A DNA stretch of 64,000 bases from Catellatospora sp. KI3. Lineage in GTDB: Bacteria; Actinomycetota; Actinomycetes; Mycobacteriales; Micromonosporaceae. The notes under the pieces were generated by a model, which saw only the letters and a list, made by a program, of their open reading frames with translations, made no database searches and had not been told where the DNA came from. Of this stretch, positions 41,905 through 51,851 are shown piece after piece. Where the stretch lies: assembly GCF_029948125.1 (NCBI RefSeq), contig NZ_JASAMB010000001.1, positions 310,001-374,000 on the forward strand, read 5' to 3'. How positions within the stretch are numbered: the stretch's first letter is position 1; every line of letters begins with the position of its first letter. The position numbers and the translations under genes were made by a program.

Positions 41905-43404
41905 GTGACCACGACTTCCCAGCCGCAGCCCGGTGCCAGTGTCGTCAGCGCGGGCGAGCTGATCTCCACCAACCCGGCCACCGGCGAGGAGGTGGCGCGC
42001 CTGCCCGTCTCCAGCGCCGCCGACGTCAAGGCGGCCGTCGCGCGGGCCCGCGCGGCGAGCGACTGGTGGGCGCAGCTGAGCTGGCGCGAGCGCCGCCGCC
42101 GCCTGCTGCGCTGGCGCAGCCTGCTGGTGCAGCGGATGCAGTCGCTGGCCGAGCTGATGCACCGCGAGGGCGGCAAGCCCGTCGACGAGGCGCTGCTGGA
42201 GATCGTCAGCGCCGTGGACCACGCCGCCTGGGCCGCCAAGCAGGCCCGCAAGGTGCTGGGCCGCCGCCGGGTGCCGGGCTCGCTGATGCAGCTGGAGTAC
42301 GCCGGTTACCTGGAGTACCAGCCGTACGGCGTGATCGGGGTAATCGGCCCGTGGAACTTCCCGATCTTCACCCCGTTCGGCTCGATCGCGTACGCGCTCG
42401 CGGCGGGCAACGCGGTGGTCTTCAAGCCCAGTGAGTACACCCCGGCCATCGGCCAGTTCTACGTCGACGCCTTCAACGAGGTCGTGCCGGAGCACCCGGT
42501 GCTGCAGATCGTGCACGGCGGCGGCGAGGTCGGCGCGGCGCTGTGCCGCTCGGGCGTGGACAAGCTCGCCTTCACCGGCTCCGGCCCGACCGGCGCGAAG
42601 GTGATGGCCGCGTGCGCCGAGTCGCTGACCCCGGTGCTGATCGAGTGCGGCGGCAAGGACGCCATGATCGTGGCCGACGACGCGGACGTGGCCAAGGCGG
42701 CCGAGACCGCCGCCTGGGGCGCCAACTTCAACGCGGGCCAGGCCTGCGTCGGCATAGAGCGGGCGTACGTGCACGCCAAGGTCTACGACGACTTCGTCGC
42801 CAAGCTCGTCGCCGAGACCGAGCGGATCGACACCGACACCCAGGTCGGCCCGATCACCATGCCGGGCCAGCGCGACATCATCGCCCGCCACATCGACTCC
42901 GCGCTCGCCGACGGCGGCCGCGCCCTGCTGGGCGGCCCCGACTCGGTGCGCGGCGCGTACGTGCGGCCCACGATCCTGGTCGACGTGCCGCACGACTCGG
43001 CGGCGGTACGGGAGGAGACGTTCGGCCCGACCATCGTGGTGACCAAGGTGGCCAGCAACGACGAGGCGGTGACCCTGGCCAACGACTCCGCGTACGGGCT
43101 GGGCTCGTCGGTCTTCTCGAAAGGCCAGGGCATGGCCATCGCGGCCCGGCTGCGCACCGGCATGACGGCGGTGAACTCGGCGTTCGCGTTCGCGGTGCTG
43201 CCGGAGCTGCCGTTCGGCGGGGTGGGCCAGTCCGGCTTCGGCCGCATCCACGGCCACGACGGGCTCAAGGAGTTCGCCCGCGCCAAGTCCATCGCCAAGC
43301 GCCGCATGCCGAGCACCCCGGCCCTGCTCACCTTCCGCCGTACCCCGGCCGGAATGAAGCTGGCCATGGCCGCCGTGAAGTTCCTCCACGGCCGCTCCCG
43401 CTGA
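41905..43404 (+). CDS. Aldehyde dehydrogenase, succinate-semialdehyde-like
   Basis: This 499-aa NAD(P)-dependent enzyme oxidises an aldehyde to its acid. The catalytic Cys281 is in NAGQACVGIER and the general base is in LIECGGKDAMIV. VIGPWNFPIF and FTGSGPTGAKVMA complete the cofactor site. Similarity is to the broad succinate-semialdehyde dehydrogenase group; the exact substrate is not certain. The GTG follows a -10-like TAGACT by seven bases, so translation probably starts at the first base of the message. Confidence 0.88.
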   Translation: MTTTSQPQPGASVVSAGELISTNPATGEEVARLPVSSAADVKAAVARARAASDWWAQLSWRERRRRLLRWRSLLVQRMQSLAELMHREGGKPVDEALLEIVSAVDHAAWAAKQARKVLGRRRVPGSLMQLEYAGYLEYQPYGVIGVIGPWNFPIFTPFGSIAYALAAGNAVVFKPSEYTPAIGQFYVDAFNEVVPEHPVLQIVHGGGEVGAALCRSGVDKLAFTGSGPTGAKVMAACAESLTPVLIECGGKDAMIVADDADVAKAAETAAWGANFNAGQACVGIERAYVHAKVYDDFVAKLVAETERIDTDTQVGPITMPGQRDIIARHIDSALADGGRALLGGPDSVRGAYVRPTILVDVPHDSAAVREETFGPTIVVTKVASNDEAVTLANDSAYGLGSSVFSKGQGMAIAARLRTGMTAVNSAFAFAVLPELPFGGVGQSGFGRIHGHDGLKEFARAKSIAKRRMPSTPALLTFRRTPAGMKLAMAAVKFLHGRSR

Positions 43405-43457
43405 CCCGCCCCGCCCCGCCTTGCCGCCGCCGCCGCGCCCGACCGGGCCGCGGCGGC

Positions 43458-43519
43458 TGCAGTTTCGGGGAAAGTGCAGGAATCTTGGCCCGGTTTCGTG
43501 CAGTTTCCCCGAAACTGCA
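43458..43519. repeat. PalC copy 3 between convergent genes
   Basis: Arms at 43458-43478 and 43499-43519 pair at 20 of 21 bases. The loop begins GGAATCTTGGCC, the same orientation as copy 1. It lies between the aldehyde dehydrogenase and nucS stops, a bidirectional terminator position. Confidence 0.9.
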
Positions 43520-43555
43520 CGAACGCTTCGCGCGGCGGCGCGCTGCGGCGGCGCG

Positions 43556-44215
43556 CTAGAAGAGGGTCAGTTCGTCGCGTTCGATGCCGCGGAGGCGGTC
43601 GTAGTTGACCACGACGCAGCGGATGCCGCGGTCGGTGGCCAGGACGCGGGCCTGCGGCTTGATCTCCTGCGCGGCGAAGACGCCCGCGACCGGCGCCAGC
43701 AGCGGGTCGCGGTTGAGCAGCTCCAGGTACCGGGTCAGCTGCTCCACGCCGTCGATCTCGCCGCGCCGCTTCACCTCGACCGCGACGTGCGCGCCGGAGG
43801 CGTCCCGGCACAGCAGGTCGACCGGCCCGATCGCGGTCATGTACTCGCGCCGGACCAGCGAGTACCCCTCGCCGAAGGTGTGCGGGTTGGCCGCCAGCAG
43901 CTCCTGCAGGTGCGCCTCGACGCCGTCCTTCTGCAGGCCGGGGTCGACGCCCAGCTCGTGCGAGGTGTCCTCGAAGACCTCCTCCAGGGTGATCCGCAGC
44001 TCCTCGCCCGCCTTGTTCACCACCCGCCACACGCCCGGGGCCTCTTCGAGCCTGCAGGGCGGGCTCATCCAGTTCAGCGGCTTGTAGGCCCGGTCGTCGG
44101 CGTGGATGGACACCGAACCGTCGGCCTTGACGATGAGCAGGCGCTTGGCAGACGGGAGGTGGGCTGACAGCCGGCCGACGTAGTCGACGGTGCAGCGGGC
44201 GATGACTAGGCGCAC
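43556..44215 (-). CDS. nucS: Mismatch-specific endonuclease NucS (EndoMS)
   Basis: This 219-aa enzyme cuts both strands at certain base mismatches and replaces MutS/MutL in actinobacteria. The N-terminal dimerisation domain ([27 protein letters not shown]) precedes the nuclease core, with D133 in GPVDLLCRD and E147-V-K149 in VAVEVKRR. The C-terminus ends DELTLF, a sliding-clamp-binding tail. Length and motifs are normal. The start is GTG. Confidence 0.95.
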
Positions 44216-44287
44216 CGAACCAGCCTAGGCGATGGCCGGTCCTGCGCTCGAAAGGCGGTGGTGGCTGGAAGGTGCCATGCTTGGACC

Positions 44288-44902
44288 GTGCTCGAACTGT
44301 TGACCGGTACCGGCCTGGCGACCGCGGCGGGGCTCAATGCGTACATCCCGCTGATGGTCGTCGGCCTGCTGGCCCGATACACCAATCTGATCACGCTGCC
44401 GGGGCCCTGGCAGTGGCTGGGCAACGGCTGGGTGCTGTTGATCCTGGCCGTGCTGCTGGCGATCGAGTTCGTGGCGGACAAGATCCCCGCGGTGGACAGC
44501 GTCAACGACGTGGTGCAGACCTTCGTCAGACCGACGGCGGGGGGTATGGCCTTCGCCGCCGGCTCCGGCTCCGAGACGGTGACGGTGTCGAACCCGGCCG
44601 ACCTGTTCACGCAGAAGATGTGGATCCCGATCGTCATCGGGGTGCTGATCTCGCTGACCGTGCACGGCACGAAGGCGGCCGCGCGACCCGCGCTGAACCT
44701 GGCCACGGTGGGGGTGGCCGCACCGGTGGTGTCGACCATCGAGGACACCGCGAGCATCGGCCTGTCCCTGGTCGCCATCATCATCCCGTTCCTGGTCATC
44801 CTGGGCGTGGGGCTGCTGATCCTGCTGGCGGTGGTGGCCGCGCGCAAACGCCGGGAACGCCGGGAGCGGCGAGCGGCGGCCCGGGTGCTGTCGCGAAAGT
44901 AA
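44288..44902 (+). CDS. DUF4126 membrane protein
   Basis: This 204-aa integral membrane protein has about five helices: GLATAAGLNAYIPLMVVGLLARY, WVLLILAVLLAIEFVADKIP, MWIPIVIGVLISLTVHG, ATVGVAAPVVSTIEDTAS and SLVAIIIPFLVILGVGLLILLAVVAARK. The DxxP (ADKIPAVDSVND) and PxxN-type loops are typical of DUF4126. The tail is very basic. The role is unknown. I chose the GTG of VLELLTGTGL, seven bases after the start of CATGCT, as a probable leaderless start. It is upstream of, but separated from, the FtsK-like locus. Confidence 0.82.
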   Translation: MLELLTGTGLATAAGLNAYIPLMVVGLLARYTNLITLPGPWQWLGNGWVLLILAVLLAIEFVADKIPAVDSVNDVVQTFVRPTAGGMAFAAGSGSETVTVSNPADLFTQKMWIPIVIGVLISLTVHGTKAAARPALNLATVGVAAPVVSTIEDTASIGLSLVAIIIPFLVILGVGLLILLAVVAARKRRERRERRAAARVLSRK

Positions 44903-44994
44903 CAGCCGTTCCCAGGCGTGGCGAAAAGCAAACAAACACCGTAAAACGGCATACTCTCGGAGGTTCATTCCATCTGATCCCCCGTGGAGGTGCC

Positions 44995-45255
44995 GTGGCC
45001 AGCGTCGCCGAGGTCAAAGCCGCCATCGATGCCGCCATGCTGCATGTGCAGGAAGGCCAGGACGCGGTGCGCTCGGCCAACGACCGGCTCGGTGAGGCGC
45101 AGCTCAGCCTCGCCACCGCGGTCGAGGGCTCCGGCCACGAAGCCGTCACCGCCGCCCAGGCGGCACTGGCCCAGGCCGCCACCGAACTCGAGGAATGCCT
45201 GACCGCGACGCTGCGCGCGGTCGAGCAGGCCGAGTCCTACGTCGCGACGCTGTGA
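44995..45255 (+). CDS. Small all-helical protein, first gene of the FtsK/EccC-like locus
   Basis: This 86-aa protein (VASVAEVKAAIDAAMLHVQEGQDAVRSAND...) is predicted to be two antiparallel helices with a break near EGSGHE (about residue 41). Size and helical-hairpin form are like WXG100 proteins, but the WxG turn is absent and no secretion tail is obvious. GGAGG lies four bases before the GTG. An AT-rich stretch with a -10-like CATACT (44950-44955) marks a promoter. It is 10 bases from the next gene and is probably a partner of the ATPase downstream. Confidence 0.72.
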   Translation: MASVAEVKAAIDAAMLHVQEGQDAVRSANDRLGEAQLSLATAVEGSGHEAVTAAQAALAQAATELEECLTATLRAVEQAESYVATL

Positions 45256-45265
45256 GGCGCAGGGC

Positions 45266-46276
45266 ATGAGTCTCGTCGAAGATCTGGCCGACCAGCTCCG
45301 CCTCGCCCGCGAGGAGCTGCCGCTGCCGCAGGTGGCCGGGGCGACCGAGCGGCTGCGTACCGCGTCCGGGCTGCTCGCCTGGGTGCTGCACCACAGCGCG
45401 GCGCCCGTCGCGGTGCCCGACCTCAGCCGCGCTGTCGAGCGCCTGGAGCACGCCGCCGCCGCGCTGCGCGTGGCCCAGGACTCCCTCGACGAGTACGCGC
45501 TGGTCCTGGGCATGCCCATCGACGCCCAGCGGCGTACCGACGACGGCTGGACCGCCGCCGTGCCGGTGCAGGCCGGCCGGGGCGAAGCCGCGCGGGCGGC
45601 CGCCGACTGCGGCCTGTCCGACTGGTGGGGCGAGCGCATCGCCGCCGTGACCGGCGAGTCCTTCGCCGTCGACACGCTGGCCGGGGACCGCGCCGACGCC
45701 GCCCAGTCCACCGCCGAGCTGCTGCGCCGCTGCGCCCGCGCGGCGCACGACGGCGACCGCCGCCGCCTGCACCGCCACCTGGCCGCCGCCGGGCCCGCCG
45801 TCGGGCTGGGCCTGGCCGCGATCGCACCGCCGCTGATCCGCCACCTCGCCGCAGAGCTGGTCGGTTACCCGCCCCGGCTGGAGGACCTGGCCCGGGTGCG
45901 CCGCGCCGCGCTGCCGCTGGGCACCGAGCTGCTGCCGCAGCTGCCCGCCGAGGCGGCCGAGGAGATCGTGGCCCGGATCTGCCACGCGCGTACGCACCGG
46001 CCCGCCGACCGTACGCCGACGCACCCGGTCGACGCGGCGACCGCCGCCGCGCTGCTGGTCGCCGCGATGCTACGGGCCACCGGCCGCGACGCCGACGCGC
46101 TCAACGAGATCATCGAGGCCGAGCGGGCCGCCGCCGGGGCCGCCCAGCAGCGGGCCACCGAGCGGGCCGAGGCGCACCGGGCCGCGCTGCGCATCACCGA
46201 CAGCGGCCGCCGACGCTCGGCCGTCGACGAGTTGGGGCGGCCCACGCAGCCCCCCAAGCGCCGCACCGGTGGCTGA
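45266..46276 (+). CDS. Helical protein of unknown function, second gene of the FtsK/EccC-like locus
   Basis: This 336-aa protein has no domain I recognise. It is mostly amphipathic helix: an N-terminal bundle (LVEDLADQLRLAREELPLPQ to about 90), a central segment with DCGLSDWWGERIAAVTGESFAVDTLAGD (about 110-140) and an Ala/Arg-rich C-terminal helix (AEAHRAALRI). There is no membrane helix or signal peptide. The stop overlaps the ATPase start by eight bases, so production is coupled. A structural or adaptor role is inference only. Confidence 0.7.
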   Translation: MSLVEDLADQLRLAREELPLPQVAGATERLRTASGLLAWVLHHSAAPVAVPDLSRAVERLEHAAAALRVAQDSLDEYALVLGMPIDAQRRTDDGWTAAVPVQAGRGEAARAAADCGLSDWWGERIAAVTGESFAVDTLAGDRADAAQSTAELLRRCARAAHDGDRRRLHRHLAAAGPAVGLGLAAIAPPLIRHLAAELVGYPPRLEDLARVRRAALPLGTELLPQLPAEAAEEIVARICHARTHRPADRTPTHPVDAATAAALLVAAMLRATGRDADALNEIIEAERAAAGAAQQRATERAEAHRAALRITDSGRRRSAVDELGRPTQPPKRRTGG

Positions 46277-48998
46277 GCCGCCGCTGCCCGCCGATCCCGC
46301 GCCCCGCCCCGCCGACTCCCGGCAGGGCGGCCGCGGGATCGTCGCGGCCGTACGCCGGGAACTCGCGGCCGCCCGCCACGCCGCGCGCGCCGCGCAGGCA
46401 GCCACGGTCACCGCCCGCATCGCCGCCACCGAGCAGCTCGAAGCCGTCCGCCGGTCGGCGCCCCGGCGGCGTCAGGAGCTGCAGGACGCCCGGGACCGCG
46501 CCCGCACCGAGGCGCAGACCCGCTGGCAGCGCGAGACCGGCAAGCTCACCGGCACGCTGCGCGAGCTGGCCGAGGCCGCCGCGCCGGGCGCCGCCGGCAG
46601 CCTCTGGTCGGCCTGGCGCCCCGGGGCCAAACCGGATCAGCAGAGCGGCTTCGCCCCGGGGCTGCTGCGCATCGGCGTGCTCGGCCACGAGCCGGGGCCG
46701 GACGCGCCGCCCGCGCTGGTGCCGCTGCTGGACGCGGCGCACCTGAGCCTGTCCGGCGACGCCGCCGCCACCGTCGACGGGCTGATCGGCGCGCTGCTGC
46801 TGCGCGCCCTGGCCAGCGTCCCCGCCGGGTCCCTGCGGGTCACCGTGTACGACCCGGGCCAGCTCGGCGGCGCCCTGGCCGGACTGGCCCCGCTCGCGGC
46901 GGGCGGGATGATCACTTACCTGGGGCCGGGCGGCCTCGCCCCGCTGCTCGACGACCTCGCCGAGCAGATCCGCCGCATCAACGAGAACGTGCTCGGCGGG
47001 GTCTACCTGAGCGTGGCCGAGCTGGCCGCCGAGACCGGCCGCCGCCCCGAGCCGTGGCGGGTGGCGGTGCTGCTGGCCGACCCGAACGGGGCCGAGCTGA
47101 GCCGGTCCGAGCGGGCGCAGCTGGACCGGGTGGCCCGGACCGGCGTCGCGGCGGGCGTACACCTGATCACCCGGGGGTTCGAGCCGGCCGCCGACACCGG
47201 CGTCGAATCGATCACGATCGGCGCCGGTACCGCCCGGACCAGCCTGACCGGCGAGATCCCGGTGCAGCTCGACCCGCCGCCCAACGCGACCCTGCTCACC
47301 GGCGTCTGCCGGGCGCTGGCCGAGCAGGCCACGGCCGGGCCGCCGCCGGTGCCGTTCGCCGCGCTGCTGCCCGAGCAGCCGTGGCAGCAGTCCTCGGCCG
47401 AGGCGCTGCGCGCCCCGATCGGCGAGGGCACCGACGGCCGCCTGGTCGAACTGGTGCTCGGCGACGACCCGCCGCACGCGCTGATCGGCGGCCCGTCCGG
47501 GTCCGGCAAGACCAACCTGCTCTACTGCTGGCTGGCCGCGCTGACCACCCGCTACTCCCCCGACGAGCTGGCGCTGTACCTGCTCGACTTCAAGGAGGGC
47601 GTGTCGTTCGCCCGGTTCGCCCCGGGCACCCGCGACCCCAGCTGGCTGCCGCACGTACGCCTGGTCGGCGTCAACGTCAACGCCGACCGCGAGTTCGGCC
47701 TGGCCCTGCTGCGGCACCTGGCCGACGAGCTCAAGCGGCGCGCCGCCGCCGCCAAGGCGCACGACGCCACCAAGCTGGCCGAGCTGCGCGCCGAGGACCC
47801 GACCGGCAGCTGGCCGCGCATCGTCGCCGTCATCGACGAGTTCCAGGTGCTGCTCGGGGCCCGCGACGCGGTCACCACCGAGGCGGTGAACCTGCTGGAG
47901 GACCTGGCCCGGCGCGGCCGCTCGCAGGGCATCCACCTGGTACTGGCCAGCCAGGACGTCTCCGGCATCGAGGCGCTGTGGGGCCGCTCCGGGCTGGTCT
48001 CGCAGTTCACGCTGCGTATCGCGCTGCCGAAGGCGCGCCGGATCCTGTCCGACGTGAACCTGGCCGCCGAGCTGATCCCCCGCTGCCACGCGGTGGTCAA
48101 CGCCGACTCGGGCGTGCCGTCGGCCAACACCGTGGTCCGGCTGCCCGACGCGGGCGACCGGGGCACCTGGCTCAGCCTGCAGGAGCAGCTGTGGCTGGCC
48201 CGTACCCCCGGCAGCGAGCCGCCCCGGCTGTTCGACGGCGACGCCCGCCCGCTGTTCCCGCTGCTGCCGCCCACCCCCGACCCGGAGCTGCTGGCCCGGC
48301 TGGGCGCGGTGGCGCTGCTCGGCGAGACCATCGACGTCACCGGGCGGCCCGCCACGCTGCGGCTCAACCGGGCGCCAGGGCGCAACCTGGCCGTGCTCGG
48401 CACCCGCGTCGAGGAGGCCTGCGCGGTCCTGCTCGCCGCCGGGCACGCGCTGGCCGGGCAGCACGCCCCGGGCACGGCCCGGTTCAGCCTGCTGTGCCTG
48501 GACGACGACGCCACCACCGCCGCGAAGTCGCTGCACGCGCTGGTCGCGGCCCGCCACCGCTGCGACTGGTACGCCGACGACGACGTGCTCGCCCTGCTGC
48601 GCGCGGCGGCCGCCGACACCGACGAGACCCCGCACTACGTGTTCGGCTTCGCCCTGGACGCGGTGCACGACCGGTTGGCCGCCAAACCGGGGCCCGGCCT
48701 GCCCAGCGGGCACGAATTGCTGCGCACTGTGCTGTCGCGGGGGCCGGAGCGGCGTACCCACCTGCTGGGCTGGTGGCGCACCGTGGCGCGGCTGCGAGAC
48801 GACCTCGGCGGCGTCGGCGCCCGCTTCGACACCATCGGCGCCTGGGTCGCCCTCGACGTGCACGGCCCCGAACTGTCCCCGCTGTACCCGCAGGCGGGCG
48901 GTCCGGCGTGGGCCCCGCGCACCGGCCGGGCGCTGCACTTCGACCGGGCCGTGCACCAGCGGCCGCAGCTCGTCATCCCGTACGAGGTGGCGCCGTGA
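46269..48998 (+). CDS. FtsK/SpoIIIE-EccC-like ATPase with one active and two degenerate motor domains
   Basis: This 909-aa protein has an N-terminal coiled coil (about 15-110) and no membrane helix. Residues about 157-330 resemble an FtsK-like fold without a P-loop (SLRVTVYDPGQLGG, AGVHLITRGF). The active domain has Walker A GGPSGSGK414T, LYLLDFKEGVSF, and Walker B AVID523E524FQVLL, then LVLASQD. A third domain from about 700 starts NLAVLGTRVEEACAVL, where a Walker A should be but lacks GK(S/T). Three linked motor domains recall EccC of type VII secretion. GTG start; the end overlaps the next gene by four bases. Confidence 0.85.
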   Translation: MAEPPLPADPAPRPADSRQGGRGIVAAVRRELAAARHAARAAQAATVTARIAATEQLEAVRRSAPRRRQELQDARDRARTEAQTRWQRETGKLTGTLRELAEAAAPGAAGSLWSAWRPGAKPDQQSGFAPGLLRIGVLGHEPGPDAPPALVPLLDAAHLSLSGDAAATVDGLIGALLLRALASVPAGSLRVTVYDPGQLGGALAGLAPLAAGGMITYLGPGGLAPLLDDLAEQIRRINENVLGGVYLSVAELAAETGRRPEPWRVAVLLADPNGAELSRSERAQLDRVARTGVAAGVHLITRGFEPAADTGVESITIGAGTARTSLTGEIPVQLDPPPNATLLTGVCRALAEQATAGPPPVPFAALLPEQPWQQSSAEALRAPIGEGTDGRLVELVLGDDPPHALIGGPSGSGKTNLLYCWLAALTTRYSPDELALYLLDFKEGVSFARFAPGTRDPSWLPHVRLVGVNVNADREFGLALLRHLADELKRRAAAAKAHDATKLAELRAEDPTGSWPRIVAVIDEFQVLLGARDAVTTEAVNLLEDLARRGRSQGIHLVLASQDVSGIEALWGRSGLVSQFTLRIALPKARRILSDVNLAAELIPRCHAVVNADSGVPSANTVVRLPDAGDRGTWLSLQEQLWLARTPGSEPPRLFDGDARPLFPLLPPTPDPELLARLGAVALLGETIDVTGRPATLRLNRAPGRNLAVLGTRVEEACAVLLAAGHALAGQHAPGTARFSLLCLDDDATTAAKSLHALVAARHRCDWYADDDVLALLRAAAADTDETPHYVFGFALDAVHDRLAAKPGPGLPSGHELLRTVLSRGPERRTHLLGWWRTVARLRDDLGGVGARFDTIGAWVALDVHGPELSPLYPQAGGPAWAPRTGRALHFDRAVHQRPQLVIPYEVAP

Positions 48999-49660
48999 CC
49001 TCCACCCCCGCGGCCCGCTACCGCGCCCTCATCGCCGACCTGGTCGCCGCCTCGCGCCGGCACGAGACGGCGCTGGCCGCCGCCAACCAGTCGCACGCCG
49101 ACGGGGTCGCCACGGTCGAGCACGACCTGGCCGCCGCCGAGGACGCCGTGGTCGCCGCCGGGGCCCGCGCCGCGCACGCGCAGAAGGTGATGGCCCAGAC
49201 GGACCTGGCCGCCGGTGCCCTGTGGGACGAGCTCAAGGAGGTACGCGGCCGCCGCGGCCGCCGCCTCGGCCCGACCCCCGCACCGGTCCCCGCCCCCGGC
49301 ACGCACGAGGGCGCGGTCCTCGACCCGATCGCGCTGCTGGAGGCGGCCGCCGCCCGCATCGACCGGGCCCGCCGGGGCGGCGAACCGCTCCCGCCGCTGG
49401 TCCTGCCGCTGCTGTTCGCGGTGGGCGCCCTCTGCTCAGCCGCCGTGACCCTACTCGGCCTCACCCTGCAGACCCTCGGCCCGCTCGGCTTCGTGACCGC
49501 CTGGCTCCTGATCCTGGCCGCCCCCCTGGCCGGCCTCATCCCCGCCCGCGACCTCGCCGACCGCTACTGGGGCACCCGCCTCGACCCCGGCGCCACCGCC
49601 CTCATCGCCCTGTCCGGCATGCTCACCACCGCCCTCCTAACCCTCACCCACCTCCCCTGA
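48995..49660 (+). CDS. Coiled-coil protein with C-terminal membrane helices, last gene of the FtsK/EccC-like locus
   Basis: This 221-aa protein has an N-terminal coiled coil (YRALIADLVAASRRHETALAAANQ to about 80) and a proline linker. Three hydrophobic segments follow: PLVLPLLFAVGALCSAAVTLLGL, LGFVTAWLLILAAPLAGLIP and TALIALSGMLTTALLTLTHL. It could anchor the soluble ATPase at the membrane. It is start-stop coupled (GTGA) to the ATPase gene. No known domain was recognised. Confidence 0.75.
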   Translation: MTSTPAARYRALIADLVAASRRHETALAAANQSHADGVATVEHDLAAAEDAVVAAGARAAHAQKVMAQTDLAAGALWDELKEVRGRRGRRLGPTPAPVPAPGTHEGAVLDPIALLEAAAARIDRARRGGEPLPPLVLPLLFAVGALCSAAVTLLGLTLQTLGPLGFVTAWLLILAAPLAGLIPARDLADRYWGTRLDPGATALIALSGMLTTALLTLTHLP

Positions 49661-49675
49661 CCCCGACAGCACCCC

Positions 49676-49852
49676 GTCGATCATGAACCTATGGCACGGC
49701 TCGACGGCGTGTCGCGTGCACAGGTTCCTGATCGACTTGCGCGCCGCGCGGCCGCCCGCCTTTGGTAGACGCCGGAGAGTCACCCCGCCGAGATGATCAG
49801 GAAGTCGTGCACAAGACACACCGTCGAGCCGTGCCATAAGTTCATGATCAAC
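49676..49852. repeat. PalD: 61-base imperfect inverted repeat between convergent genes
   Basis: Arms 49676-49736 and 49792-49852 match at 51 of 61 bases. Each arm begins and ends with GATCATGAAC- and TTCCTGATC-like ends, so each is itself partly palindromic. The 55-base centre is non-coding. The ecm stop codon (49848-49850) lies inside the right arm. Confidence 0.88.
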
Positions 49853-51851
49853 GCGGCAGGGTGGGGGTGGGGAGGTGGGCGGCGCGGACTACGGTGACCA
49901 GTTCGTCCATGATGTCGGTGAGGGCGAAGTGCTTGGGGGTGAAGACCCGGGCTACGCCTGACTCCAGGAGGGTGACCGCGTCCTCGTCGGGGATGATGCC
50001 GCCGACGACGACGGGAAGGTCGGGCAGGCCCGCTTCGCGCAGGCCGCGCAGGACGGCGGGGACCGCGTTGAGGTGGGAGCCGGAAAGGACCGACAGGCCC
50101 ACCAGGTCGACGTCCTCCTGGACCGCCGCAGCGACGATCTGCGCCGGAGTCAGCCGGATGCCCTGGTAGACGACCTCGAACCCGGCGTCGCGGGCGCGTA
50201 CCGCGATCTGCTCGGCGCCGTTGGAGTGCCCGTCCAGGCCGGGCTTGCCGACGAGCAGCCGCAGCCGTTCGCGCCCCAGCTCCCGGGCCGTGGCACGCAC
50301 CCGCTCGCGCACCCGGGCCAGGTCCGCGTCCGCCCCGCCGGAGACCCCGGCCAGGCCGGTGGGCGCCCGGTACTCGCCGAACACCTCGCGCAGCACGCCC
50401 GCCCACTCGCCCGTGGTGACCCCGGCCCGCACGCAGGCCAGCGTGGCGTCCATCAGGTTGGCTCCACCGGCGGCGTCGGCGCGCAGCCGGTCCAGGGCCG
50501 CGGCGGCGGCCGGGGCGTCGCGCTGCTCGCGCCACTGCCGCACCGAGGCGACGACCGCCTGCTCGACGGCCGGGTCGACCTGCTCGACGGCCTGCGCCCC
50601 GGCGGCGGTCAGCGGCGACGGCTCGGTCTCGGTGTACCGGTTGACGCCGACGACCACGTCCTGCCCCGACTCCACCCGGCGGCGCCGGTCGACCAGCGAG
50701 GAGACCAGCGCGCTCTTGAGGTAGCCGGACTCCACCGCCGCCACCGGCCCGCCGAGGTCGAGGATCTGCTCCAGCTCGCGGCGCGCGCCGGTGACGATCT
50801 CGTCGACGAGCGCTTCGACCACGTGCGACCCGGCGAACAGGTCGGGGTACTCCAGCAGGTCGGACTCGTACGCGAGGACCTGCTGCAGGCGCAGGGACCA
50901 CTGCTGGTCCCAGGGGCGGGGCAGGCCCAGCGCCTCGTTCCAGGCGGGCAGCTGCACCGCGCGGGCGCGCGCGTCCCGGGAGAGGGTGACGCCCAGCATC
51001 TCCAGCACGATGCGGGCCACGTTGTTCTCGGGCTGCGACTCGGTGAGCCCGAGCGAGTTGACCTGTACGCCGTACCGCAGCCGCCGCTGCTTCGGGTCGG
51101 TGACGCCGTACCGGTCGCGGGTGATCTCGTCCCAGAGCCGGGTGAACGCGCGCATCTTCGCCATCTCCTCGACGAAGCGCACGCCGGAGTTGACGAAGAA
51201 CGAGATCCGCTGCACCACGTCGCCGAGCCGCTCGGCCGGCACCTGTCCGCCGTCGCGGACCCGGTCGAGCAGCCCGACCGCGGTGGCCAGCGCGAAGCCG
51301 ACCTCCTGCACGGGCGTGGCCCCGGCCTCCTGCAGGTGGTACGAGCAGATGTTGACGGGGTTCCAGGCGGGCGCGTGCACGACCGTCCACGCGACGACGT
51401 CGGTGGTCAGCCGCAGCGACGGGCCGGGCGGGAAGATGTACGTCCCGCGCGACAGGTACTCCTTGATGATGTCGTTCTGGGTGGTGCCCGCCAGCCGGGA
51501 CGGGTCGGCGCCCTGCTCCCGCGCGACGGTGACGTACAGCGCGAGCAGCCACATCGCGGTGGCGTTGATGGTCATGCTGGTGTTCGCCGCGCCCAGGTCG
51601 ATGCCGTCGAACAGGGCGCGGGCGTCGCCGAGGTGCGCCACCGGCACGCCGACCCGGCCGACCTCGCCGGCGGCGAGCTCGTGGTCGGCGTCGTACCCGG
51701 TCTGCGTGGGCAGGTCGAAGGCGACCGACAGCCCGGTCTGGCCCTTGGCCAGATTCCGCCGGAACAGGGCGTTCGTCGCCGCGGCGCTGGAGTGCCCGGC
51801 GTACGTGCGCATGACCCAGGGACGGTCCCGATCGGCGAGGCGAGGTTCCAT
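49848..51851 (-). CDS. ecm: Ethylmalonyl-CoA mutase
   Basis: This 667-aa adenosylcobalamin enzyme converts (2R)-ethylmalonyl-CoA to methylsuccinyl-CoA. The barrel opens MRTYAGHSSAAATNALFRRNLAKGQTGLSVAFDLPTQTG in pieces typical of the MeaA/Ecm group. KEYLSRGTYIFPP and GVQVNSLGLTESQPENN follow, and the fused C-terminal B12 domain has KPGLDGHSNGAEQIA and VVVGGIIPDEDA. Unlike IcmA it carries both domains. It uses the product of Ccr after epimerisation by the epimerase. The perfect palindrome TGAACGTTCA lies 15 bases upstream of the ATG. Confidence 0.95.
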   Translation of the reverse strand: MEPRLADRDRPWVMRTYAGHSSAAATNALFRRNLAKGQTGLSVAFDLPTQTGYDADHELAAGEVGRVGVPVAHLGDARALFDGIDLGAANTSMTINATAMWLLALYVTVAREQGADPSRLAGTTQNDIIKEYLSRGTYIFPPGPSLRLTTDVVAWTVVHAPAWNPVNICSYHLQEAGATPVQEVGFALATAVGLLDRVRDGGQVPAERLGDVVQRISFFVNSGVRFVEEMAKMRAFTRLWDEITRDRYGVTDPKQRRLRYGVQVNSLGLTESQPENNVARIVLEMLGVTLSRDARARAVQLPAWNEALGLPRPWDQQWSLRLQQVLAYESDLLEYPDLFAGSHVVEALVDEIVTGARRELEQILDLGGPVAAVESGYLKSALVSSLVDRRRRVESGQDVVVGVNRYTETEPSPLTAAGAQAVEQVDPAVEQAVVASVRQWREQRDAPAAAAALDRLRADAAGGANLMDATLACVRAGVTTGEWAGVLREVFGEYRAPTGLAGVSGGADADLARVRERVRATARELGRERLRLLVGKPGLDGHSNGAEQIAVRARDAGFEVVYQGIRLTPAQIVAAAVQEDVDLVGLSVLSGSHLNAVPAVLRGLREAGLPDLPVVVGGIIPDEDAVTLLESGVARVFTPKHFALTDIMDELVTVVRAAHLPTPTLPR

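Follow-up and report, generated by a model that had tools for sequence, protein, structure and literature searches.

In footnote 6 to one of their tables, Zhang et al. (2012; PMC3482391) mention systems in which a solo WXG protein accompanies a distinct YueA-like ATPase, only the middle of whose three HerA/FtsK domains is active; the footnote terms them 'mobile versions of T7SS' (type VII secretion system, T7SS) and names beta- and epsilon-proteobacteria, with actinobacteria not among the lineages it gives. The types T7SSc to T7SSj of Garrett, Higginson and Palmer (2024; PMC11217815) are all presented with a membrane-bound ATPase of four NTPase domains. Here we analysed a four-gene operon, P1 to P4, of the soil actinomycete Catellatospora sp. 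KI3, in which all genes lie on the + strand within 44995-49660 of the window, by which we mean the whole 64,000-nt stretch studied (GCF_029948125.1, NZ_JASAMB010000001.1:310,001-374,000; all coordinates are relative to it). We propose, at about even odds in our own judgement, that the operon encodes a reduced type VII-secretion-type motor docked at the membrane, in which P3 moves a pair formed by P1 and P2. The four genes are the following.

44995..45255, + strand: P1, 86 aa, GTG start; from sequence comparison a WXG100-type helical hairpin in which W is lost and the turn G kept
45266..46276, + strand: P2, 336 aa, ATG start; a probable N-terminal second hairpin and a C-terminal all-helical domain
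46269..48998, + strand: P3, 909 aa, GTG start; a soluble EccC-like ATPase
48995..49660, + strand: P4, 221 aa, GTG start; a coiled-coil-like N-terminal part and three C-terminal hydrophobic segments, from hydropathy and the translation

All four genes were called by a codon model trained on fetched loci, genes 1 and 4 (P1 and P4) having been missed by a cruder first gene caller; P2 and P3 overlap by 8 nt, P3 and P4 by 4 nt. The original prediction had described four rightward genes of 86, 336, 909 and 221 aa, overlapping or nearly so, and the open reading frames and the codon model agree with it. Their conservation as a set, on which it had staked its case, was found in relatives. A contig scan of genomes yielded 90 stretches that encode a relative, and among the best 80 of these 90 loci, 58 carry P1 to P4 in the same order on one strand, which goes beyond chance. 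Since sites differ among loci, with more than one chromosomal site for the set among those fetched, the four genes stay together while their neighbours change.

The structure model of P3 (predicted local distance difference test score, pLDDT, 88) begins with a long helix, followed by counterparts of three EccC domains, namely the DUF domain, ATPase1 (active) and ATPase2 (dead), and contains neither transmembrane helices nor an ATPase3. Its parts are as follows.

46338..46580, + strand: P3 residues 24-104, a single long helix in place of the transmembrane/stalk part of EccC
46656..47336, + strand: P3 residues about 130-356, a degenerate motor-like domain equivalent to the EccC DUF domain
47340..48248, + strand: P3 residues about 358-660, the active motor domain equivalent to EccC ATPase1
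47490..47513, + strand: P3 residues 408-415, the Walker A P-loop GPSGSGKT with K414
48276..48995, + strand: P3 residues about 670-909, a degenerate motor domain equivalent to EccC ATPase2, without a P-loop

By structure comparison EccC matches two P3 motor domains (490 residues) and the EccC DUF domain matches the third, whereas the close match to FtsK covers mainly one motor domain (about 270 residues, 2.5-2.7 Å). P3 is thereby like EccC of T7SSa (ESX) in having the DUF, ATPase1 and ATPase2 domains in the same order and fold, beside a WXG100-type partner. Unlike that EccC, which has N-terminal transmembrane helices and four NTPase domains, P3 has three domains, no ATPase3 and, by hydropathy, no convincing transmembrane helix, the sole segment being weak and charged. 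The original prediction had likened P3 to EccC and held that it has no membrane helix, and both points stand. It had also seen one intact motor (K414, D523/E524) between two motor-like domains without usable P-loops, and had reasoned that a structure search could expose the flanking domains as unrelated to motor folds; in the model both flanking domains have EccC motor folds. All 36 aligned P3 members contain exactly one P-loop, K414 and E524 being present in 36/36 and D523 in 35/36; the same pattern finds one P-loop in three of four plasmid relatives outside this set and none in that of Deinococcus.

In a motor-domain tree, which is unrooted and in which long branches were flagged, a branch with support 98/91 separates all 19 family ATPases (19/19) from 7 EccC sequences, with FtsK on the EccC side; an earlier 31-row tree gave the same split with support 99/97. 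FtsK/SpoIIIE proteins have the motor-domain fold in common with P3 and differ in flanking domains, partners and tree position. The group to which P3 belongs, apart from EccC, includes plasmid-borne relatives from Caballeronia, Helicobacter, Rhodococcus and Deinococcus. We also considered P3 as a defence protein of the SspH/DndH/MADS kind and rejected this, as the PADLOC matches span the shared motor domain only; the SspH profile is uninformative for P3 because it matches in 118/119 genomes, apparently mostly through generic FtsK.

The case for homology of P1 to WXG100 proteins is fairly good as judged by sequence. P1 matches the Pfam WXG100 model end to end, but below the curated cut-off (E 8.7e-4), and 9 of 17 members of a diverse P1 set match it at E<=0.1, more than match any other family. 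A P1 profile searched against 98 genomes had matches in 8, of which the five inspected (G000, G017, G022, G038 and G056) have the ATPase as a neighbour of P1, and its only other match in the window's genome was a canonical WXG100 (E 3.1e-5). P1 aligns with canonical WXG100s without gaps across the turn, where the turn glycine is kept and the tryptophan missing; residues 43-46 read VEGS, G45 is retained in at least 90% of the P1 family and W is absent. DUF6244 was tried as the family of P1 and rejected, with weak matches in 3 of 17 members, none among 21 relatives (0/21) and no control matched.

P2 appears to contribute the second hairpin and carries a further domain.

45266..45514, + strand: P2 residues 1-83, a probable second hairpin, equivalent to a separate 82-83 aa gene of Pseudonocardiales; low model confidence
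45623..46234, + strand: P2 residues about 120-323, a modelled all-helical domain of unknown fold, residues about 120-300 with high confidence

In loci of the Pseudonocardiales type, two small hairpin genes precede the ATPase, and the second aligns with P2 residues 1-83, scoring 9.3 bits for P0002 versus a maximum of 6.1 in 560 composition-keeping shuffles. The N-terminus of P2 is probably the second hairpin of the pair. The helical domain had no clear match when compared with the Protein Data Bank (PDB). Because P1 is of WXG100 type and P2 probably begins with a second hairpin, type VII partners are present, and the earlier statement that an obvious WxG pair is absent needs correcting: a WxG-like pair is there in altered form.

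The hairpins of this branch share a distinctive end.

45238..45252, + strand: the C-terminal motif YVATL of P1 (aromatic-xxx-Leu), its very last residues, with Y82 and L86 invariant in 17 rows

An [YF]xxx[LIV] end occurs in 61 of 62 unique hairpins found with the P1 profile versus 0 of 213 other small called genes, and at 60% identity the 62 fall into 11 clusters, 10 of them with the motif and the exception a canonical ESX WXG100; the counts are not independent of the search because the profile includes the motif columns. P2 has an equivalent, Y77xxx(L/I)G, ahead of its linker, and a hairpin encoded on a Rhodococcus plasmid ends in RYSSSL. The WXG100 pair of T7SSa, in contrast, carries YxxxD/E and a tail, whereas the hairpins here lack W and end at [YF]xxx[LIV]. 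Among the WXG100s of the window's genome, the three small ones that exceed the Pfam cut-off show [YF]xxx[DE] followed by an additional tail. The signal tail is missing from the hairpins of the actinobacterial branch, and ATPase3 is missing from the ATPase. The tail of EsxB binds ATPase3. The title of PDB entry 4n1a gives 'ATPases 2 and 3' with a signal sequence peptide, and nothing more.

P4 has three hydrophobic segments by hydropathy (residues 135-153, 156-174 and 199-217), so the earlier suggestion that the last gene could supply the anchor holds up as a candidate. Across 12 examined loci of Micromonosporaceae, the gene that follows the ATPase encodes one to three hydrophobic segments, and a P4-like architecture without detectable homology is seen in L007, L101, L102 and L104-L106 (our locus numbers).

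Compared with the solo-WXG systems of footnote 6 in PMC3482391, the window operon is alike in its three-domain ATPase with only the middle domain active and in its WXG-type partner, and plasmid copies from Caballeronia (a beta-proteobacterium) and Helicobacter (an epsilon-proteobacterium) share the group of the window ATPase. Unlike the systems as the footnote gives them, the window operon is chromosomal, has a probable hairpin pair with one hairpin fused to a helical domain, and includes a membrane protein with three segments; no toxin gene is recognised in it. The mobility that the footnote ascribes to them is not seen in the window copy, which has ordinary chromosomal neighbours; plasmid copies exist elsewhere. 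The operon is an actinobacterial chromosomal branch of the footnoted lineage without a recognised toxin gene, and we found no fuller account of it in the open-access literature searched, which is not proof that none exists. 'Undescribed', as the original prediction had called the candidate system, is therefore too strong, since the footnote gives the ATPase architecture with a solo WXG protein, albeit not for actinobacteria.

The operon is also like T7SSc to T7SSj, as PMC11217815 describes them, in pairing an EccC/EssC-type ATPase with a WXG100 protein, hairpin pairs being given for T7SSe and T7SSg; unlike theirs, P3 is not a membrane-bound four-domain ATPase. T7SSd is the only actinobacterial type of these in that account, and its kinase, TsdH and TsdI were not seen among the neighbours of the operon. 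As to T7SSa, the Pfam scan covered the four genes flanking the operon and found none of EccB, EccD, EccE or mycosin (MycP) among them, in line with the absence of these partners noted earlier. The genome paper on Micromonospora lupini (PMC4182475) mentions an extra 'eccC' outside the clusters of that genome, which may be a P3-type ATPase.

The plasmid relatives extend the comparison. That of Rhodococcus pseudokoreensis matches the profile at E 2e-158 near full length and comes with a protein that has one C-terminal hydrophobic segment, as well as an 86-aa hairpin; of the Rhodococcus plasmid copies, one lies beside TerD/DUF475 genes and another beside Hsp70/GrpE. The Caballeronia relative (E 3e-129, near full length) is accompanied by a WXG100 above the Pfam cut-off and by VWA, CARF, PP2C and kinase genes, and the Deinococcus relative (E 7e-86, near full length) by two WXG100-like proteins. 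The Helicobacter relative (E 6e-71, covering 157-699 of 899 positions) comes with a WXG-like protein, a nuclease-toxin-like gene and a SUKH gene.

In the scheme that follows, we infer that the hairpins pair and bind by the C-terminus, that P3 forms a ring and docks on P4, and that export results. P1 and the N-terminal hairpin of P2 would form a WXG100-type pair in the cytoplasm, which would dock on P3 by its aromatic-xxx-Leu end, replacing the contact between tail and ATPase3 of EccC. P3 would sit as a ring on a membrane platform of P4, its long helix against the coiled coil of P4. Binding of the hairpins would activate the single active motor of P3, and the motor would push the pair into or across the membrane, the helical domain of P2 being the putative cargo. 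A broader proposal is possible yet rather doubtful: a widespread type VII-like class with a soluble three-domain motor and no ESX/Ess membrane complex, whose actinobacterial branch would recognise WXG-type hairpins by a novel C-terminal code, aromatic-xxx-hydrophobic-COOH, drive them into or across the membrane with one small three-helix protein as its sole membrane part, and serve as a chromosomal housekeeping device without recognised toxin, in up to three related copies per genome. Type VII secretion is otherwise known from large membrane machines, and a four-gene version with a soluble motor would provide a compact setting for studying what is moved and how the motor is set going when hairpins bind. 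That ATPase3 and the signal tail are both absent in the actinobacterial branch, with the fixed C-terminal motif in their stead, is a natural experiment on substrate recognition. The lineage appears only in a footnote of the open-access literature searched, yet it is carried by the fetched Micromonospora and Catellatospora relatives.

Several observations weigh against a membrane-docked motor acting on a hairpin pair. The WXG100 score of P1 is 20 bits, below the Pfam cut-off of 27.3; in single members of the P1 family some other helical families, GAS (9.1e-5), Flagellin_N (1.2e-4) and GrpE (6.1e-4), beat the best WXG100 match (8.7e-4), and in a PDB profile search unrelated helical proteins precede ESAT-6 (E 0.18). 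The case for the P2 hairpin is weaker than that for P1, because the median match of the second hairpin is only 5.6 bits over the 27 P2 members reported and hhalign gives a probability of 51% (E 1.5e-4); this hairpin is modelled at low confidence, and a designed coiled coil is its sole match in a PDB profile search. The second hairpin of L084 ends in LMTSL, without the motif, which is also missing in the WXG100 of L107 and in the four WXG-like proteins encoded on plasmids of Caballeronia, Helicobacter and Deinococcus; four of these last five (L107 and the three plasmid genera) stop three or four residues after a tyrosine. The Rhodococcus plasmid hairpin has no WXG100 match. In Actinoplanes, a second copy of the ATPase and P4 lacks hairpins and lies beside a polytopic membrane protein. 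P4 has no detectable homologue across distant branches, the best non-family matches having E 0.13 and above, little better than decoys. Four Pseudonocardiales loci (L081, L082, L084 and L087) showed no convincing membrane protein in their core, nor was one found after the ATPase of L107 or among the seven genes examined in each of the Caballeronia and Helicobacter clusters. Because the Pseudonocardiales, Caballeronia and Helicobacter cores lack such a protein, export across the membrane is not obligatory for the whole lineage.

An intracellular, non-secretory machine is the main rival, since a membrane protein is lacking in several relatives and some relatives lie among stress or conflict genes. 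Here the ATPase would remodel or thread the WXG-type hairpins when the cell responds to stress or conflict, and any P4 would only localise the ATPase to the membrane. The four Pseudonocardiales cores and the examined Caballeronia and Helicobacter genes fit this explanation, as do the CARF, VWA, PP2C and kinase genes around the Caballeronia copy and the TerD/DUF475 and Hsp70/GrpE genes beside the Rhodococcus ones. It has to contend with the hydrophobic-segment proteins that are regular in the examined Micromonosporaceae operons and in several other branches, and with the DUF-ATPase1-ATPase2 order of EccC that P3 has kept, and we consider it rather unlikely. Alternatively, P3 could serve the resident ESX system as a spare, soluble ATPase of EccC type whose task would be to load P1 and P2 onto the ESX channel. 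EccB is found in 11 of 15 module-bearing genomes, the window's included, and EccC-like genes lie elsewhere in the window's genome. The other 4 of the 15, which are 93-100% complete, have no EccB match, although divergent EccB proteins may escape the model and EccC-length frames do occur in these 4 genomes; their lack of a match makes the ESX role less likely, and as the four scanned neighbours are not ESX genes and the hairpins lack the ESX signal tail, we judge it improbable. Least likely, and to us very improbable, is that P3 moves DNA in segregation or conjugation, which the original prediction had allowed: FtsK closely matches mainly one P3 domain while EccC matches two and the DUF, the trees split the P3 family from FtsK as from EccC, the partner is a WXG-type hairpin, and the window copy lies among ordinary chromosomal genes, as judged from the four neighbours scanned.

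Returning to the distribution of the proposed membrane-docked motor, the closest named relative among the fetched loci is Catellatospora tritici, with 97% identity in P3. Among the 22 of 80 loci outside the standard arrangement, 13 are incomplete because the contig stops next to or within the ATPase; a contig end lies upstream of the ATPase in 11 of the 22 and downstream in one (L079). L075 and L083 have no P4 match, a 90-aa hydrophobic frame standing at the place of P4 in L075. L081, L082, L084, L087 and L088 are of the Pseudonocardiales type, L088 being cut inside the ATPase. Spirilliplanes L027 and Actinoplanes L046 and L077 have the ATPase and P4 with no P1 or P2 nearby. A P1 profile search of the genomes behind six loci, these three included, found P1 in 6/6: both Actinoplanes genomes carry a complete four-gene set at the Micromonospora-type site and the hairpin-less copy elsewhere, and Spirilliplanes has P1 and P2 at the Micromonospora-type site, with no ATPase in the 13 kb fetched, and the ATPase and P4 at the DUF4126 site. 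Micromonospora locus L023 holds the set between clpB-like and cupin-like genes; the labels clpB, folE, ftsH, cupin and trxA in relatives, like all coiled-coil labels, were given by eye from translations. A further related set (ATPase, small hydrophobic protein and P1-like hairpin) adjoins folE-/ftsH-like genes in Spirilliplanes and A. lutulentus. The window's genome has a paralogue beside such genes (L007:5175-7660, G000:C16), consisting of an ATPase and a three-segment P4-like gene; no hairpin gene was called there, and stops interrupt the upstream part where tblastn gives a match.

Several variants were seen along the way. Where P1 and P2 would precede the ATPase, Actinoplanes and Spirilliplanes have a polytopic membrane protein instead (L046:7490-8659, L077:8762-9919 and L027:8621-9994); that of L046, the only one of the three scanned, has no Pfam match. 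In Micromonospora sp. BL4 a single 1193-aa frame spans P2 and P3 (L052:8921-12499), and in Micromonospora sp. ATCC 39149 a 1162-aa frame begins in P3 and overruns its usual end, the P3 match stopping at residue 757 (L083:10115-13600); these frames are natural fusions or sequencing errors. L088, on a contig labelled Candidatus Melainabacteria, is a Pseudonocardiales-type copy with two hairpins and 51% identity, probably from a mis-binned actinobacterial contig. In L104:10213-11222 and L105 (family f20), two proteins come after the ATPase and the three-segment gene: one of 201 aa, which at 109-179 matches WXG100 weakly and below the cut-off, and a helical one of 133 aa; these sets adjoin trxA-, trxB- and sigma-factor-like genes, by eye. 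Allokutzneria (L153:9229-12087) has an 80-aa hairpin, the ATPase and, in the place of P4, a 420-aa protein with cysteine pairs that by eye resemble zinc ribbons.

Around the window copy, nucS, a DUF4126 gene and an aldehyde dehydrogenase gene lie upstream, and a methylmalonyl-CoA mutase gene lies downstream on the opposite strand. The nucS, DUF4126 and methylmalonyl-CoA mutase neighbours recur in Catellatospora, and 15 of the 80 loci have a DUF4126 gene no more than 4 kb upstream. An Rfam scan of 43000-51000 gave 0 matches. A terminator-like stem-loop lies on the minus strand at 44936-44952, just upstream of the operon (1 found versus 0.6 expected in shuffles). No match to the sigma-70-type promoter consensus was found upstream of the operon; of the AT-rich promoter proposed earlier, what stands is the upstream stretch, which is conserved in Catellatospora and close relatives in an alignment of 10 upstream regions.

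44916..44994, + strand: the presumed operon promoter region, with the conserved stretch GGCGTGGCGA ... AACG-CATACT and a Shine-Dalgarno-like GGAGG

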